A stretch of DNA of 22,477 bases. Source: a virus. The stretch spans positions 1 through 22,477 of the IMG/VR virus record IMGVR_UViG_3300036945_000772; one strand, 5' to 3'. The notes beneath the pieces were generated by a model, which did not search any database, had not been told where the DNA came from, and was given only the letters and a program-made list of their open reading frames with translations. This document shows, one piece after another, positions 3,323 through 9,224 of this stretch (its first letter is position 1; each line of letters starts with the position of its first letter). The translations under genes were made by a program, and so were the position numbers.

Positions 3323-3624
3323 GCAAGAAAAGCAGAAACAACGCCGAAAGGCGCAACAGGCTGGCCGCACTCCGTGCCGAGGTCACGCTCACGCTGGAGG
3401 ACAAGGCCAAGCCCCACCACATGACGTACAACGCACGCAAGACCAAGCAGCTCATCAGTGAGTTCAACCGCACGGGACTTGTGCCGAACTGGGCAGGCGG
3501 TGAGATGCCATACGGCGGTGACTTCGCCCAAAACGGATGGAAGTACGACGACGCTGCGGACGCCATGAGATACGCCATGGTGCACGGTCAGAGCATCACC
3601 AAGATGGTGGTGCCTTCGACTTGA
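3319..3624 (+). CDS. Basic hypothetical protein (101 aa)
   Basis: The ATG at 3319 overlaps the stop of the previous gene (ATGA), so translational coupling is likely; GGAG lies 12 nt upstream. Residues 1-20 are very basic (KKSRNNAERRNR), followed by a helix and a Gly-rich middle (WAGGEMPYGGDF near 59-70). A short conserved-looking helix, YDDAADAMRYAM, follows. A basic tail of this kind fits nucleic-acid or ribosome contact, but no domain is recognised. The TGA stop lies within the -35 box of the next promoter. Confidence 0.7.
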   Translation: MSKKSRNNAERRNRLAALRAEVTLTLEDKAKPHHMTYNARKTKQLISEFNRTGLVPNWAGGEMPYGGDFAQNGWKYDDAADAMRYAMVHGQSITKMVVPST

Positions 3625-3649
3625 CAAGTACCGGGTATTCTGGTACAAT
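3621..3649 (+). promoter_or_regulatory. Sigma70 promoter P2 with extended -10
   Basis: TTGACA (3621-3626), a 17-bp spacer and TACAAT (3644-3649) preceded by TGG. It is a near-duplicate of the promoter at 1064. The spacer and -10 contain an inverted repeat, GTACC (3628-3632) with GGTAC (3642-3646), that could be an operator. The -35 box overlaps the stop codon of the preceding gene. Transcription should start near 3656. Confidence 0.85.
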
Positions 3650-3655
3650 AATGAC

Positions 3656-3683
3656 TATGGACTGAGGGAACGCCTCGGCCATA
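3656..3683 (+). promoter_or_regulatory. 5'-terminal leader hairpin
   Basis: TATGG (3656-3660), a bulged A, then CTGAGG pairs with CCTCGG followed by CCATA (3679-3683) around a GAACG loop: 11 pairs with one G-T pair. It begins at the predicted first transcribed base, so the mRNA would start with a stem, which often protects against 5' RNA decay. No T-tract follows. Confidence 0.6.
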
Positions 3684-3685
3684 CA

Positions 3686-3739
3686 CCTAATCCCACGGGA
3701 TTAACTTGTTCACTTCACCACTTGTTTATTTACTGGAGA
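3686..3739 (+). repeat. Operon leader module (intact copy)
   Basis: The first 30 bases (3686-3715) are identical to 6129-6158, and 3720-3739 matches 6700-6719 at 18 of 20 positions. Here the two halves are 4 bp apart and end in the ribosome binding site CTGGAGA. In the other locus they are separated by an HNH gene cassette. Confidence 0.8.
3688..3703. repeat. 16-bp palindrome, copy 5 (centre AC)
   Basis: TAATCCCACGGGATTA lies in the leader of the second operon, about 32 nt after the expected start of transcription and 42 bp before the start codon. Confidence 0.88.
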
Positions 3740-3744
3740 TCATC

Positions 3745-4104
3745 ATGGATACCAATGCCATCATCAACGCTGCCATGCAGCAACTCGTTGACACTGTCGC
3801 AGACGAGGTCATTCGCAGACTGAAAGCAGAGGGTTCTGCGCAGTTCACACTGGAGTCAGAGCTGCTCAACGCAGCCATCGTGCACGCGTTGGAGTACGAC
3901 GCCACTGTCCGGGAGAGCATCCGCGACATGGTAACTGACACCATCGACAACACCAACCTCAGCGACAACAGCGAGTTTCAAGACCTGCAGCGTGAGGTCG
4001 AGAGCTTGCAAGAGAAAGTCGAGGAGCTTGACCCCGCAGTCATTGACGCTGACGACTCAGACTTCCAAGACGCTGTGCGCAGCGTTATTCGTAACAACAT
4101 CTAA
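3745..4104 (+). CDS. Acidic coiled-coil hypothetical protein (119 aa)
   Basis: The ATG at 3745 is preferred over an upstream in-frame TTG because CTGGAG sits 6 nt before it. The product is 119 residues, acidic and largely helical. A heptad-like stretch at about 78-96 (LQREVESLQEKVEELD) predicts a short coiled coil, so it probably oligomerises. No catalytic or DNA-binding motif is visible. It is the first gene after promoter P2 and its hairpin/palindrome leader, so it should be strongly expressed early. Confidence 0.75.
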   Translation: MDTNAIINAAMQQLVDTVADEVIRRLKAEGSAQFTLESELLNAAIVHALEYDATVRESIRDMVTDTIDNTNLSDNSEFQDLQREVESLQEKVEELDPAVIDADDSDFQDAVRSVIRNNI

Positions 4105-4114
4105 GGAGATCATC

Positions 4115-4603
4115 ATGAAAATCGACAAATACGTCCGCCAGTCCATCGTCCGCGCCATCATGGCCGATGTGCCCAAGCCCGACAAAGCCAAGCGCCGCCT
4201 TGAGCTGCAGGAAGCCATCGTCAAGGCCATGAGCCCTGCCGTGCGCAAGGTGTTCAGAGAGTGCCCCGGTGCGCTCAAGACGCACTACTTCGGTGACTTG
4301 ATATATAACAGCCTCAACTGGGCATCTCGTGAGCTGGTGGTTGGTGATGTGACTGAGGAAAAGCTAGACGAGCTTGCCAAGCCTTACAAAGATGAGGACG
4401 AGGCCATCAGCGCGGCGCACTGCAAACTGCAGGGTGCCATCGAGGGGTGCACCACACGCAAAGCGCTCATGACTCGCTTGCCCGAGTTCGAGAAGTATTA
4501 CCCAGCAGAGGAAGCGCCCATGTCCAAGTCATTGCCTGCACTGGCCAACGTCATGTCTGATCTGTCCAAGCTCGGCTGGCCCAAGAAACCCGGAACCATC
4601 TAA
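4115..4603 (+). CDS. Conserved phage-type protein, possibly Nmad5-like (162 aa)
   Basis: AAGGAG precedes the ATG at 4115 by 6 nt. The 162-residue product starts with a basic helix (MKIDKYVRQSIVRAIMADVP), continues with a long charged helical part and ends in a compact segment (SLPALANVMSDLSKLGWP). This arrangement reminds me of the phage Nmad5 family (putative nucleotide-modification-associated domain 5), but the resemblance is from memory and weak. No catalytic residues can be assigned. Its TAA stop (4601-4603) is formed by a copy of the 16-bp palindrome. Confidence 0.7.
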   Translation: MKIDKYVRQSIVRAIMADVPKPDKAKRRLELQEAIVKAMSPAVRKVFRECPGALKTHYFGDLIYNSLNWASRELVVGDVTEEKLDELAKPYKDEDEAISAAHCKLQGAIEGCTTRKALMTRLPEFEKYYPAEEAPMSKSLPALANVMSDLSKLGWPKKPGTI

Positions 4604-4616
4604 TCCCACGGGATTA
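4601..4616. repeat. 16-bp palindrome, copy 6 (centre AC)
   Basis: TAATCCCACGGGATTA has its first three bases as the stop codon of the upstream gene. The next ribosome binding site (AAGGA) follows within 6 bp. Confidence 0.88.
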
Positions 4617-4632
4617 ACTACAAGGAAACATT

Positions 4633-5514
4633 ATGTCCATCAAAGATCATGCACTCATCGTGTCACTCAGTGTGTCCAAGCCACAGATGACCAAGAAAGA
4701 CGACAAGGCCACACGTGATGCCGAGTCGGCCAACAACGCACACGGCGCGGGTCAGTTCCGCAAAGACCTGTACCCCAAGTCACTGGTGCAGCCCATCATG
4801 CAGGTCGAGTCAGCAGCCCGTGCCTACATCGACAGCACCACATACCCATGGACACGTGGCGAGAACCTGCTGCCCACTGCCAAGTTCATGGACTTCACCG
4901 CACGCATCGGCAAGTTCGAGCTGGAGTTCGAGCAGTGCGTCACTGCGTTCCTCAACAACTGGAGCAACGTGATGCTGCAGGCCCAGCAGAGCCAAGGTGA
5001 GCTGTTCGACCCATCGGCTTACCCAGACCTGACTGACCTCAAGCACGACTTCCGCTTCCGTGTGGCGTACCGCCCTGTGACTGACTCGCACGACTTCCGC
5101 GTCAAGATGCAAGAGGACGAGCTCGATGCGCTGCGCTCTCAGGTCGAGGCTGCCACCAAGGAGTCGATGAACAACATGCTGCGTGCTCCACTGGAGCGTC
5201 TCAAAGATGTCGTGCAAAGACTGCACGATGTGACTGGCAAGACCGAGCGTGCGACGATCAACAAGCGCACCGGTGAGACTGAGGTCAAGCCGCCCATCTT
5301 CCGCGACTCTGTGTGCGAGAACATCATGGAGGAGATCGAGCTGCTGCGTGCGTTCGCAGACATCTTGCCCGACGACATCAACACCTTGGCACGCACGGTC
5401 GTCGACACCACGCCACATCCACAACAACTGCGCGACAACCCCGACAAGCGCAAGGAAGTCAACGTGCAGACCGCTGCGCTGCTGGCATCCATCGACTCAA
5501 TGCTCAACGACTGA
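4633..5514 (+). CDS. DUF3150-like hypothetical protein (293 aa)
   Basis: AAGGA lies 6 nt before the ATG. The 293-residue product is soluble and mostly helical. Its N-terminus (IVSLSVSKPQMTKKDDKATR) and two long charged helical segments (about 80-125 and 160-205) resemble what I recall of DUF3150 proteins. Those are often found next to MoxR-type ATPases and VWA proteins in phages and integrative elements. The MoxR/VWA pair starts about 1.2 kb downstream, which supports this. No active site is known for the family. It probably acts as a partner or substrate of the ATPase/VWA machinery; that is inference. Confidence 0.7.
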   Translation: MSIKDHALIVSLSVSKPQMTKKDDKATRDAESANNAHGAGQFRKDLYPKSLVQPIMQVESAARAYIDSTTYPWTRGENLLPTAKFMDFTARIGKFELEFEQCVTAFLNNWSNVMLQAQQSQGELFDPSAYPDLTDLKHDFRFRVAYRPVTDSHDFRVKMQEDELDALRSQVEAATKESMNNMLRAPLERLKDVVQRLHDVTGKTERATINKRTGETEVKPPIFRDSVCENIMEEIELLRAFADILPDDINTLARTVVDTTPHPQQLRDNPDKRKEVNVQTAALLASIDSMLND

Positions 5515-5539
5515 TCAACTTACTTAACCGGAGAATCAC

Positions 5540-5890
5540 ATGATCGACATCAAAAAAGAAACCATCGCCAAACACATCCGCATCCTTGCCAACCTCGGTT
5601 GCAAGTTCAAAGTCATCGAGGCCGATGGCACCGAGCACGGCGAGCTCGTCGTAGCGGCAGACAAGCCGCACACCCCTCGCATCGAGGTGCTCAAGCACAT
5701 TGACTACAAGACGCCACTGATGGCTATGAAACCCGGCGACGTCATCAGCATCAAGGGTATGCCCGGTATGCCGCTGGAATCCCTGCGCTCTAGCATAGCT
5801 GGCTATGCGACGCATGAGTTCGGTGCTGGTGCGGTGACAACGACGCTCGACCGACCCATCAATGCAGTGATCGTGCTGCGTGTGGAGTAA
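5540..5890 (+). CDS. Hypothetical protein (116 aa)
   Basis: CCGGAG lies 6 nt before the ATG. The product has an N-terminal amphipathic helix (MIDIKKETIAKHIRILANLG) and a short beta segment around residues 20-37. A Gly/Met/Pro turn-rich region follows (SIKGMPGMPLES near 71-82), and it ends in a hydrophobic beta strand (NAVIVLRVE). No family is recognised. It lies between the DUF3150-like gene and a 75-residue gene in the same operon, with only 3 bp before the latter. Confidence 0.72.
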   Translation: MIDIKKETIAKHIRILANLGCKFKVIEADGTEHGELVVAADKPHTPRIEVLKHIDYKTPLMAMKPGDVISIKGMPGMPLESLRSSIAGYATHEFGAGAVTTTLDRPINAVIVLRVE

Positions 5891-5893
5891 GCC

Positions 5894-6121
5894 ATGGCCA
5901 AGCAACAAACATACTGCATCATAGAGACCCCGCACGCCATGGTTCTGCCCTCTGACATAGCGATGGAGCTGTTCCCTCTGCTGTGTCACGGCGAGGCAGT
6001 GCAGTACGACTGGCAGAACAAAACGTACAAGCGTGTCACGTCAGATCGCGATACTTGCACCGTCAAACAGTTCACCATAGCTCAGTACGCTGAGCTTGCA
6101 CTCAACTCAGACACCAAGTAA
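5894..6121 (+). CDS. Hypothetical protein (75 aa)
   Basis: The start follows the previous stop by 3 bp, with GGAG 7 nt upstream inside the previous gene. The 75-residue product has three Cys (8, 31, 55) but no paired metal-binding motif. It is an all-soluble alpha/beta pattern, and the segment QYDWQNKTYKRVT looks like a beta hairpin. It is the last gene before the HNH cassette; its TAA lies 9 bp before a copy of the 16-bp palindrome. Confidence 0.68.
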   Translation: MAKQQTYCIIETPHAMVLPSDIAMELFPLLCHGEAVQYDWQNKTYKRVTSDRDTCTVKQFTIAQYAELALNSDTK

Positions 6122-6130
6122 AATCACCCC

Positions 6131-6146
6131 TAATCCCACGGGATTA
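6131..6146. repeat. 16-bp palindrome, copy 7 (centre AC)
   Basis: TAATCCCACGGGATTA lies 10 bp upstream of the -35 box of the HNH gene. It is the left part of the interrupted leader module (6129-6158). Confidence 0.88.
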
Positions 6147-6156
6147 ACTTGTTCAC

Positions 6157-6185
6157 TTGACTGTATACGCATATGCGTGTATAAT
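6157..6185 (+). promoter_or_regulatory. Promoter of the HNH gene with dyad in the spacer
   Basis: TTGACT (6157-6162), a 17-bp spacer and a perfect TATAAT (6180-6185). The spacer carries the perfect 12-bp palindrome ACGCATATGCGT (6167-6178), a likely repressor site. The expected start of transcription (about 6192) coincides with the ATG at 6193. The -35 box begins exactly at the end of the duplicated leader sequence. Confidence 0.8.
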
Positions 6186-6192
6186 AGATACC

Positions 6193-6672
6193 ATGAACTC
6201 AGAACTTACCCAAGACGAGCTGCGTCGCATACTGCATTACAGCAAACGGACTGGCGCGTTCACGTGGTTAGTGGACAGCGGTGCGAGGAAGTGCGCTGGC
6301 TTAGAAGCTGGCACGCTCAGCACTATGAACAGGGTATACATCAGCATCAAGCGGAAGAAGTACCTTGCACATCGCCTTGCTTGGTTATACGTCTACGGCG
6401 TGTGGCCGAGTTCTCAGATAGACCATAAAGATGGAGACCCAACCAACAACAGGATGAGTAATCTACGCGAAGCAACGCCTTCGCAAAACCGACAGAACCT
6501 ACGTAATCCCACGGGATTAAACCCATATGTCGGCGTCCACCACATTTCTCGCGGAAATAAGTGGGCTGCACGAATAAACGGCAAACACCTTGGGTACGCT
6601 AAGACGGCAGAGCTTGCCAGAGAGATGTACCTTAGTGCAAAAGCAAAGTTGCACACGCACTTACCAGAATAA
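6193..6672 (+). CDS. HNH homing endonuclease with AP2-like domain
   Basis: The 159-residue product carries an HNH_3-type nuclease core: AHRLAW with His60, then IDHKDGDPTNNRMSNLR (76-92) with Asp77, His78 and Asn86. A C-terminal AP2-like DNA-binding segment follows (about 112-148: VGVHHISRGNKWAARI and a terminal helix). This is the standard build of free-standing phage homing endonucleases, which cut genomes lacking the gene. No Shine-Dalgarno precedes the ATG at 6193, and the promoter places the 5' mRNA end at or next to it, so translation is probably leaderless. An in-frame TTG at 6157 is less likely because it lies in the -35 box. A copy of the 16-bp palindrome is embedded at residues 104-109 in the linker between domains. 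The gene is richer in A/T than its neighbours. Confidence 0.88.
   Translation: MNSELTQDELRRILHYSKRTGAFTWLVDSGARKCAGLEAGTLSTMNRVYISIKRKKYLAHRLAWLYVYGVWPSSQIDHKDGDPTNNRMSNLREATPSQNRQNLRNPTGLNPYVGVHHISRGNKWAARINGKHLGYAKTAELAREMYLSAKAKLHTHLPE
6504..6519. repeat. 16-bp palindrome, copy 8, inside the HNH gene (centre AC)
   Basis: TAATCCCACGGGATTA is read in frame as Asn-Pro-Thr-Gly-Leu (residues 105-109), between the HNH core and the AP2-like domain. It is a full-strength copy with no mismatches. Confidence 0.88.
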
Positions 6673-6678
6673 CCGGCT

Positions 6679-6695
6679 CCGCAGCGGCCCTGCGG
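6679..6695 (+). other. Hairpin after the HNH gene
   Basis: CCGCAG (6679-6684) pairs perfectly with CTGCGG (6690-6695) around CGGCC. No T-tract follows, so it is a weak terminator at best. It may mark the 3' edge of the HNH cassette or protect an mRNA end. Confidence 0.5.
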
Positions 6696-6699
6696 TAAA

Positions 6700-6719
6700 A
6701 CTTGTTTACGTACTGGAGA
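6700..6719 (+). repeat. Operon leader module, right half displaced by the HNH cassette
   Basis: It matches 3720-3739 at 18 of 20 positions and ends in the ribosome binding site for the GTG at 6725. The left half of the module is at 6129-6158. Confidence 0.75.
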
Positions 6720-6724
6720 AAATT

Positions 6725-7732
6725 GTGAGAATTAATCATGTTACGCCCATTCTCGTCAAGCGTTACCTCAACGAGAACACACGCAAGCGCACCACATTCC
6801 TGCGCGGCCCATCGGGCATCGGCAAGTCCGAGGTCGTGTTCCAAACATCCCAGCTGCTCGCTGAGCACGTGCCCAACTGGCGCGGTGTCGTTGACCTGCG
6901 CTTGGCACAGATGGACCCCACTGACCTGCGCGGCATCCCGCACGTCAAGGAAGGCCGCACATACTGGGCACGCCCTGACTTTCTCCCTGCTGACGGCGCT
7001 GGCATCCTGTTCCTCGACGAGATCACATCGGCACCACCTGCTGTGCAGGCTGCTGCGTACCAGCTGACGCTCACACCCGAGGACTTCGGTATCCCTGCCG
7101 AGTGGATGGTCATCGCTGCTGGCAACCGCAAGACAGATCGCGGTGTCACGTTCAACCTCGCAGCTCCACTGCAGAACCGCATGTGCGACATCGACGTGTC
7201 CACCACCATCGACGACTTCGTCAGCCACGCCATCACACGCGGCATCCGCCCTGAGATTCTGTCGCTGTTGCAAGACCGCCCTGACTTGCTGCACAAGTTC
7301 GAGCCCACAGGTGACATCAAGCCCTTCCCATCACCACGCTCGTGGTTCGCTGTGTCGCACACACTGGAGCTTGACCTGCCTGTGCAAGACCGTGTCGAGC
7401 TCATCAAGGGTGACGTTGGCGAGGAAGCTGCCATGATTCTTGAGACACACCTGCGTGTGTGGGAGACCATGCCACGCATCGAGGACATCTTGCAGGGCAA
7501 GGACGTGCCGATCCCCAAGGAGCTCAACGTGCGCTACTGCGTTGCGATGGGCTTGGCCACACGCCTTGACGCTGACAACTTCGACAAGGCTTGGAAGTTC
7601 TTGGAGAAGATGCCCGGTGACGTGCAGACTCTGACCATCAAGCTGGCACACAAGCGCGACAAGACCATCACCAAGTCACCTGCCTTCAGCAAGTGGGCCA
7701 TCGCGAATCAGCAAGCATTCTCTATGAAGTGA
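6725..7732 (+). CDS. MoxR/CobS-like AAA+ ATPase
   Basis: The GTG at 6725 is chosen because GGAG lies 6 nt upstream. The frame is open further 5' but that part overlaps the HNH gene. The product is 335 residues. Walker A is GPSGIGKS (28-35). The MoxR hallmark MDPTDLRGIP follows at 63-72, then Walker B ILFLDE (94-99), sensor 1 AAGN (131-134) and a likely arginine finger in PLQNRM (Arg152). MoxR-family ATPases work as hexameric rings, usually with a VWA-domain partner, to remodel or activate a target such as a chelatase or enzyme complex. Here the VWA partner is two genes downstream. The target is unknown. The stop overlaps the next ATG. Confidence 0.9.
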   Translation: MRINHVTPILVKRYLNENTRKRTTFLRGPSGIGKSEVVFQTSQLLAEHVPNWRGVVDLRLAQMDPTDLRGIPHVKEGRTYWARPDFLPADGAGILFLDEITSAPPAVQAAAYQLTLTPEDFGIPAEWMVIAAGNRKTDRGVTFNLAAPLQNRMCDIDVSTTIDDFVSHAITRGIRPEILSLLQDRPDLLHKFEPTGDIKPFPSPRSWFAVSHTLELDLPVQDRVELIKGDVGEEAAMILETHLRVWETMPRIEDILQGKDVPIPKELNVRYCVAMGLATRLDADNFDKAWKFLEKMPGDVQTLTIKLAHKRDKTITKSPAFSKWAIANQQAFSMK

Positions 7733-8034
7733 TGCTGACAGTGAAGCACCCCTACACAAACGACAAGCCTGTGCTTGTCGAGGATTACAACCACGGTGGC
7801 ATCTGGACGTTCAGCGTAGAGCGCACTGCCAAGTATCGCCGTGGTGGTGCGTACAACGTGCGGGAGTTCTTTGCGACAGTGCGCCCTGCATACAACGCAG
7901 CGGGGTTCTTCGGACACTGCTCTGGAGTTGTTGTCTTGCGCAATGACTTCAACGAGATCAGAGAGTTCCCGGATTACTTCGCAGCCAAGAACTACGTCGA
8001 AGCGCTTTTTGCGCTAGAATTCGCAGCTGGCTAA
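7732..8034 (+). CDS. Hypothetical protein between ATPase and VWA genes (100 aa)
   Basis: The ATG at 7732 shares a base with the stop of the ATPase gene (TGATG), so translation is coupled. The 100-residue product is rich in aromatic residues and alternating beta-like segments (GGIWTFSVERTAKYRRGG, GHCSGVVVLR), ending in a helix. No family is recognised. Its position between the two partners suggests that it belongs to the same complex or regulates it. Its TAA stop lies within a copy of the 16-bp palindrome. Confidence 0.72.
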   Translation: MLTVKHPYTNDKPVLVEDYNHGGIWTFSVERTAKYRRGGAYNVREFFATVRPAYNAAGFFGHCSGVVVLRNDFNEIREFPDYFAAKNYVEALFALEFAAG

Positions 8035-8047
8035 TCCCACGGGATTA
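8032..8047. repeat. 16-bp palindrome, copy 9 (centre AC)
   Basis: TAATCCCACGGGATTA supplies the stop codon of the upstream gene and lies 28 bp before the ATG of the VWA gene. Confidence 0.88.
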
Positions 8048-8075
8048 ACAACACACTTATTCACTGGAGAAAATC

Positions 8076-9224
8076 ATGGCACTTATGGATCGTATTGACC
8101 TTGCATACAGCAAGCTCGGACTGCGTGAGGCGTTCATCGCTGCAGTCATGACCCGCGTCAAGCGCGAGGTCTCAGACAAGGTTCCCACTGCTGGCACCAA
8201 CGGCAACTGGGTACGCTTCAACCCAACGTGGTGCGAGAAGCTGACAGACGAAGAGCTGTTCGGTCTCGTGCTGCATGAGTCCTGCCATGTGGTGCTGATG
8301 CACATGTGGCGTCGCGAGGGCCGTGACCCCAAGATATGGAACGTGGCCAACGATGCGCTCATCAACGCCTACATCAAGTCACGTGGCTGGCAGCTGCCCA
8401 AGGGCGGTGTGCACATCGGCTGGGTCAAGGAAGAGCACAGCTCCGAGTACGTGTACAACAAGCTCAAGGAGCAGCAGCAAGAGCAACAGTCCGGTGGCGG
8501 TGGCTCCGGTGACGGCGAGGGTGACGAGGACGACAACACCAACGGCGGTGGCTTCGACGGCACTGGCGACCTGCACGATGCACAGGATGACGCGACCCGT
8601 GTGGACATGGAGGCGACCATCGTCGCTGCTGCCAAGATGGCCAAGGACTGCGGCCAAGGCTCCAGCCTGATCGACCGTGTGCTGGAGAAAGTCGGCGAGC
8701 CCATGGTTCGTTGGCAAGACGTGTGCCGCTCCATGATGACCGAGAGCTGCGCTGCTGACTACACATACATGCGCCCATCGCGCCGGTTCATCGGCTCGGG
8801 TCTGTACCTGCCATCGCTGCGCTCTGACGCACTGGGTGGCTTGGCCATCGGCTTCGACACATCGGGCTCCATGGGCCCCAAGGAATGCAACCAGATTGCT
8901 GCTGAGATTCAGGCGATCGTCGACGACTTGCAGCCCGAGTTCGTTGAGGTGGCGTACTGCGACTACGCAGTGACTCGCGTCGAGCGCTTCGAGCGTGATG
9001 AGCTGCTACAGCTGCGCCCATCGGGCGGTGGTGGCACACGGTTCCAGCCTGTGTTCGAGCACTTTGACAAGACAGGCGAGCGCTATTGCGGCATGATCTT
9101 CTTCACGGACATGGAGGGTAACTTGCAAGAATGCGAGGAGCCACCGTTCCCAACCATCTGGGCCGACATCGGCTACAGCCACCCACCCGAGCCCTTTGGC
9201 ACACGTGTCAAGGTGGCGCTATGA
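8076..9224 (+). CDS. CobT-like protein: metallopeptidase-like plus VWA domain
   Basis: GGAG lies 6 nt before the ATG. The 382-residue product has the two-part build of DUF2201 proteins. The N-terminal part (about 1-115) has HESCH (67-71, an HExxH zinc motif) and WNVANDALIN (88-97), where Asp93 may be a further ligand. A Gln/Gly/Asp-rich low-complexity linker follows (about 131-170). The C-terminal VWA-like domain carries a MIDAS motif, DTSGS (261-265). Such proteins pair with MoxR/CobS-type ATPases, and that gene is just upstream. Whether the HExxH is an active peptidase is not known. The likely role is in an ATP-driven remodelling or chelatase-like complex. Confidence 0.88.
   Translation: MALMDRIDLAYSKLGLREAFIAAVMTRVKREVSDKVPTAGTNGNWVRFNPTWCEKLTDEELFGLVLHESCHVVLMHMWRREGRDPKIWNVANDALINAYIKSRGWQLPKGGVHIGWVKEEHSSEYVYNKLKEQQQEQQSGGGGSGDGEGDEDDNTNGGGFDGTGDLHDAQDDATRVDMEATIVAAAKMAKDCGQGSSLIDRVLEKVGEPMVRWQDVCRSMMTESCAADYTYMRPSRRFIGSGLYLPSLRSDALGGLAIGFDTSGSMGPKECNQIAAEIQAIVDDLQPEFVEVAYCDYAVTRVERFERDELLQLRPSGGGGTRFQPVFEHFDKTGERYCGMIFFTDMEGNLQECEEPPFPTIWADIGYSHPPEPFGTRVKVAL

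Follow-up and report, generated by a model that had tools for sequence, protein, structure and literature searches.

In a virus record of 22,477 bases (IMG/VR IMGVR_UViG_3300036945_000772), which was analysed over its whole length and is here called the window, a gene for an HNH endonuclease stands in the leader of a moxR-like ATPase gene. This raises the questions of how the gene came to lie there, and of which sequence such an enzyme would recognise. The features that bear on them are collected in Table 1.

Table 1. Features of the HNH-moxR locus and related repeats (window coordinates).
Feature	Position	Strand	Remarks
HNH-AP2 homing-endonuclease-type gene, 159 aa	6193..6672	+	Pfam HNH_3 4e-17; phrog_99 2e-52; fold
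Palindrome copy inside HNH ORF	6504..6519	no strand	Codes low-confidence inter-domain linker (RNPTGLNP)
16-bp palindrome TAATCCCACGGGATTA, core of block 1 (6129-6158)	6131..6146	no strand	Genome-wide gene-boundary repeat
TAATCCCRYGGGATTA, exact copies	80, 1145, 1862, 3688, 4601, 6131, 6504, 8032		
TAATCCCRYGGGATTA, one-mismatch copies	386, 9871, 13201		
Two-block leader of gene at 3745	3686..3739	+	Parallel leader, not the empty site itself
HNH promoter TTGACT-17-TATAAT	6157..6185	+	11/12 matches to consensus; same in L058 and L074
12-bp palindrome ACGCATATGCGT, candidate operator	6167..6178	no strand	Between -35 and -10; conserved in all three carriers
Hairpin CCGCAG-CGGCC-CTGCGG	6679..6695	+	Directly 3' of HNH stop
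Distal moxR leader with ribosome binding site (block 2)	6700..6719	+	
moxR-like AAA ATPase gene, GTG start	6725..7732	+	AAA_5 3.6e-9; phrog_1297 ATPase 5e-72
Recoded first nine moxR codons	6725..6751	+	Putative homing site, changed/protected form

Empty and occupied leaders ahead of moxR

About 50 loci match the MoxR protein at 73-100% identity, and nearly all of them have one uninterrupted leader from the palindrome to moxR; the preliminary description of this DNA had proposed looking for related phages of this kind, and dozens are present. Besides the window, an HNH gene was found at the same place only in L058 and L074, where it encodes proteins 80% and 77% identical to that of the window. 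L058 and L057, which lacks the gene, form a near-perfect occupied and empty pair: the left flanks are 99.6% identical over the 524 nt that end at the stop codon of the gene before, the right flanks are 96.7% identical over 4287 nt, starting in the last part of the leader, and 49 bp of L057 are replaced by 557 bp in L058. The entry of the HNH gene into the moxR leader, as first proposed, is confirmed by this pair, but the event was not clean, and what is established is insertion with partial replacement of the leader. As the leaders vary, the original joint cannot be read exactly. True empty orthologues have the palindrome followed by about 28-67 nt of variable leader, and L092, the nearest HNH-less relative of the window (moxR DNA 97.5%), reads palindrome-CTTAACCACTTGTTTATTCATTCACTGGAGTTTCATC-ATG. 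An exact search of viral contigs for the joined 28-bp leader gave no match, and neither isolated phages nor genome contigs yielded a close relative. The HNH gene is free-standing, being intergenic and having empty and occupied alleles at one locus (L057 and L058), and no Rfam intron match was found within 3600-8200.

The two blocks that make up the leader of the gene at 3745 recur on either side of the cassette as originally described, block 1 identically (3686-3715 and 6129-6158, 30/30) and block 2 at 18 of 20 positions (3720-3739 and 6700-6719), with the HNH promoter, ORF and hairpin between them. The match is far above chance, yet it is less specific than had been assumed. Block 1 is mostly the 16-bp palindrome, which this phage group repeats at gene boundaries: there are 8 exact copies in the window, and 11 with up to three mismatches, against 0.04 expected, and relatives (about 58-61 kb each) have 6-10 copies apiece, mostly within one region. 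The palindrome often overlaps a stop codon, and three copies begin with the stop codon of the gene before them; its RY centre would fit a DNA site bound by a dimer. Several genes are preceded by a leader type whose ribosome-binding end is block 2, and a third, weaker copy (8051-8070, 75%) lies ahead of the gene at 8076. Leaders in this phage are usually made of these parts (palindrome, ACTTGTTYACTT and ribosome binding site), and the two blocks are not a one-off paralogous pair. The likeness of the 3745 and moxR leaders is thus real but general, since block 1 is built on the repeated palindrome and block 2 is a common leader type. The idea that the 3745 leader preserves the empty site is not supported, as the palindrome is repeated across the group and the true empty orthologues have a variable leader after it.

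The copies of ACTTGTTYACTT that flank the cassette were not adopted as a target-site duplication, the left copy being missing in L058. A variant of the palindrome, TAATTCCCACGGGAATAA, occurs in L094-L096. Elsewhere in the window, two near-identical sigma-70-type promoters (TTGACA-17-TACAAT; 1064-1092 and 3621-3649) share the spacer core CGGGTATTCTGG and are possibly co-regulated. The gene at 4115-4603 matches Pfam Nmad5 (nucleotide modification associated domain, 1.8e-8), and that at 8076-9224 encodes a DUF2201 metallopeptidase/VWA-like protein paired with MoxR, for which the phrog_1314 label of HNH endonuclease looks like a mislabel.

The HNH protein, its promoter and the hairpin

The Pfam HNH_3 match of the protein is above cut-off (4.2e-17), and among 30 homologues residues D77, H78 and N90 of the HNH motif are invariant, and H60 and N86 nearly so. 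In the AlphaFold model (mean pLDDT 83) the top match of residues 5-107 is I-HmuI, the HNH homing endonuclease of phage SPO1 (PDB 1u3e; Foldseek E 2.8e-4; Z 8.1, rmsd 3.2, 94 residues), with the HNH motif residues aligned. The C-terminal domain differs from that of I-HmuI and is AP2-like, residues 110-157 matching plant AP2 domains (Z 6.0-6.5, rmsd 1.7-2.1); a Pfam sequence search of the protein gave no AP2 match, and the assignment comes from the fold. The protein is well supported as one of the free-standing homing-endonuclease type, with an I-HmuI-like nuclease fold joined to an AP2-like DNA-binding domain. The palindrome copy inside the ORF, which reads TAATCCCAAGGGATTA in L058 and L074, encodes a linker segment that is absent from the homologues compared. 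I-HmuI is intron-encoded, unlike the HNH gene here. The HNH-AP2 (IPA-HNH) enzymes of ICP1 and other phages (PMC10448857) share the N-terminal HNH and C-terminal AP2 domains and likewise adjoin core phage genes, but their target gene is another one, and the HNH domains of ICP1 do not match the canonical HNH_3 as the present one does.

The HNH promoter was found only in the window and the two other known carriers. The HNH ATG is located 7 nt past the -10 box and lacks a Shine-Dalgarno sequence, which makes a leaderless mRNA probable. The palindrome within the promoter includes ATGCGT, the sequence found at the moxR start of HNH-less relatives, and its minus-strand form ATGCGTAT is present in both the window and L058. 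I-TevI represses itself through an operator that resembles its homing site (PMC2988022), and by analogy it is possible that the HNH gene is autorepressed via this palindrome, which carries the core of the moxR start, the operator/target match being only 6-8 nt long and spotted after the fact.

The hairpin is one of a class marked by a 7-bp stem and a conserved CGGYY loop, of which 17 cases lie before moxR and 1 elsewhere in 325 kb; it shows covariation, both sides having changed in 5/7 pairs. It precedes moxR with or without the HNH gene (the window, L048, L051, L053, L069, L074, L076, L087 and L097), in L074 there are two copies that flank the HNH gene on each side, and the hairpin is older than, or independent of, that gene. 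It is a possible regulatory RNA element, and a search for an Rfam match to the hairpin found none. It was rejected as an intrinsic terminator, as no T run follows the stem and the terminator-like sites do not include it.

Recoding of the moxR start

All three HNH carriers begin moxR with GTGAGAATT, whereas HNH-less relatives begin it with ATGCGTATY, except for L097 (GTGAGAATC) and L093 (ATGTTGATT). The carriers also have synonymous changes in codons 4-9. The window departs from L092 in 8 of the first 9 codons and in 17 of 259 afterwards (p = 1.5e-8), and each early change is synonymous or a swap of the start codon; for L058 and L057 the counts are 6/9 and, elsewhere, 14/326 (p = 1.6e-6). The third carrier pair, L074/L076, gave p = 0.05 and is too diverged for a local excess to show. 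None of 990 HNH-less pairs, a set that excludes L093 and L097, had an excess in the start-codon region at p < 0.05; the L089/L090 pair (0/9 vs 240/326) was an indel artefact and was dropped after codon alignment. The recoding is therefore localized, and it is tied to the HNH gene, being present in 3/3 carriers and in 1/48 non-carriers, namely L097 (p = 2e-4, uncorrected for kinship).

Residue 4 of MoxR (N, S or A) is that of the respective backbone, and each carrier has its own set of changes in codons 5-9, so that the first three codons look to have been inherited with the cassette and the following ones to have diverged within each lineage. The codon AGA is seldom used by the phage and makes up 1 of the 23 Arg codons in moxR. 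As HNH-less relatives with the hairpin before moxR keep ATGCGT, apart from L097, the hairpin does not explain the recoding. At synonymous sites the moxR start of HNH-less relatives is not unusually conserved (rank 53 of 318 windows), and a strongly constrained target is therefore not claimed. L097 (5780-6010) has the recoded start and the hairpin without the HNH gene; this locus may be a relic of a lost endonuclease, and a search of L097 for an HNH remnant found none.

The homing site and its alternatives

In intronless homing the neighbouring gene is the target and the donor is resistant as its own target differs (PMC12724721; PMC2988022), which makes the recoded stretch a natural candidate for the target. 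A separated target and resistant donor allele have a precedent (PMC12724721), and 17 silent changes near the target have served to keep gp210, a homing endonuclease from phage PhiPA3, from recognising it (PMC11620839). The alleles compared place the homing site most likely not in the leader but at the start of moxR, about 55 bp 3' of the HNH gene. We consider it fairly probable that the gene encodes a free-standing homing endonuclease, that its homing site is about ATGCGTATYNNNCAYGTCACC and that carriers are protected by recoding. The gene for the HNH nuclease and AP2 domain sits in the moxR leader with its own promoter and 3' hairpin, just upstream of the putative site, which non-carriers have in its intact form. 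In a co-infection the moxR start of the recipient would be cut or nicked by the enzyme, and repair on the donor template would bring in the HNH gene together with the new leader and the recoded start; carriers would escape self-cutting through their recoded first codons.

Several points weigh against a homing site at the moxR start: only three carriers are known, the pair L074/L076 shows no local excess, L097 is recoded without the HNH gene, the operator/target match is short and was spotted afterwards, and the known free-standing T4 enzymes cut hundreds or thousands of bp away. The recoded codons could also be a diverged co-conversion junction without a protective role; the backbone-specific residue 4 and the differing codon choices argue against one tract common to all carriers, yet they are compatible with an old linked segment that diverged along with the cassette. 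A more elaborate version, in which the start region of the downstream gene is the target, ATGCGTAT in the promoter is the autorepression operator, and the lineages separately rewrote nine codons including the start, giving self-immunity by repeated synonymous recoding, is possible but doubtful.

It is unlikely, in our judgement, that the target is the leader itself, as the preliminary description implied in proposing a test for cleavage of the joined sequence. The insertion would then split the site, and the changed moxR start would be flank co-converted from a diverged donor; the insertion is indeed located in the leader, ACTTGTTYACTT stands on both sides of the cassette in the window and L074, and co-conversion of flanks is usual in homing. 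However, the evidence points away from this, as HNH-less leaders vary greatly in sequence and length between relatives and would make a poor target, while changes in the first moxR codons are seen in all carriers and hardly anywhere else. Furthermore, residue 4 keeps its backbone identity amid codons changed differently in each carrier, unlike one shared donor tract.

Adaptation of moxR translation initiation to the new leader brought by the cassette, unrelated to cleavage, is a still weaker candidate that we regard as improbable. The leader and the region of the ribosome binding site did change with the insertion, and GTG is usually a weaker start than ATG, but ATGCGT is retained, except in L097, by relatives that have other inserts and hairpins in this leader, and folding of the leader and start showed no consistent difference between carriers and non-carriers. 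That the HNH protein is a domesticated, non-mobile phage nuclease and the cassette an ordinary difference in gene content is very improbable: HNH genes that neighbour other phage genes may become domesticated (PMC10448857), and mobility is here a prediction from sequence comparison, but the gene is patchy (3 of about 50 related loci) and at the same site in three different backbones, the HNH-AP2 architecture is known from homing endonucleases, and the recoding is tied to the HNH gene.

With a homing site at the moxR start, the locus resembles those of the T4-like free-standing SegF, SegG and MobE (PMC2988022, PMC12724721) in its place in an intergenic spacer beside the predicted target gene and in the orientation of its neighbours, and would share with them a donor allele that is changed at that target. 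It differs in that the predicted target lies about 55 bp from the gene and not hundreds or thousands, and is the start of a moxR-like ATPase gene, and in having its own sigma-70-type promoter and a palindrome in the spacer. Another moxR-like ATPase (NTPase) gene invaded by an HNH endonuclease is that of Klebsiella phage Pylas, where the endonuclease is located within the gene, in an annotated intron.

Intronless homing is an element kind that is already known; within the reach of our searches, the novelty lies in the specific target predicted here, in the recoding of the start codon and in the possible operator. Many free-standing phage endonucleases are without a known target, and here, by comparison of carriers with non-carriers, the likely target shrinks to about 27 bp, with a cut site, a resistant allele and an autoregulatory operator as predictions. 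Local synonymous recoding that is confined to carriers is a signature which could be searched for beside other orphan endonuclease genes.
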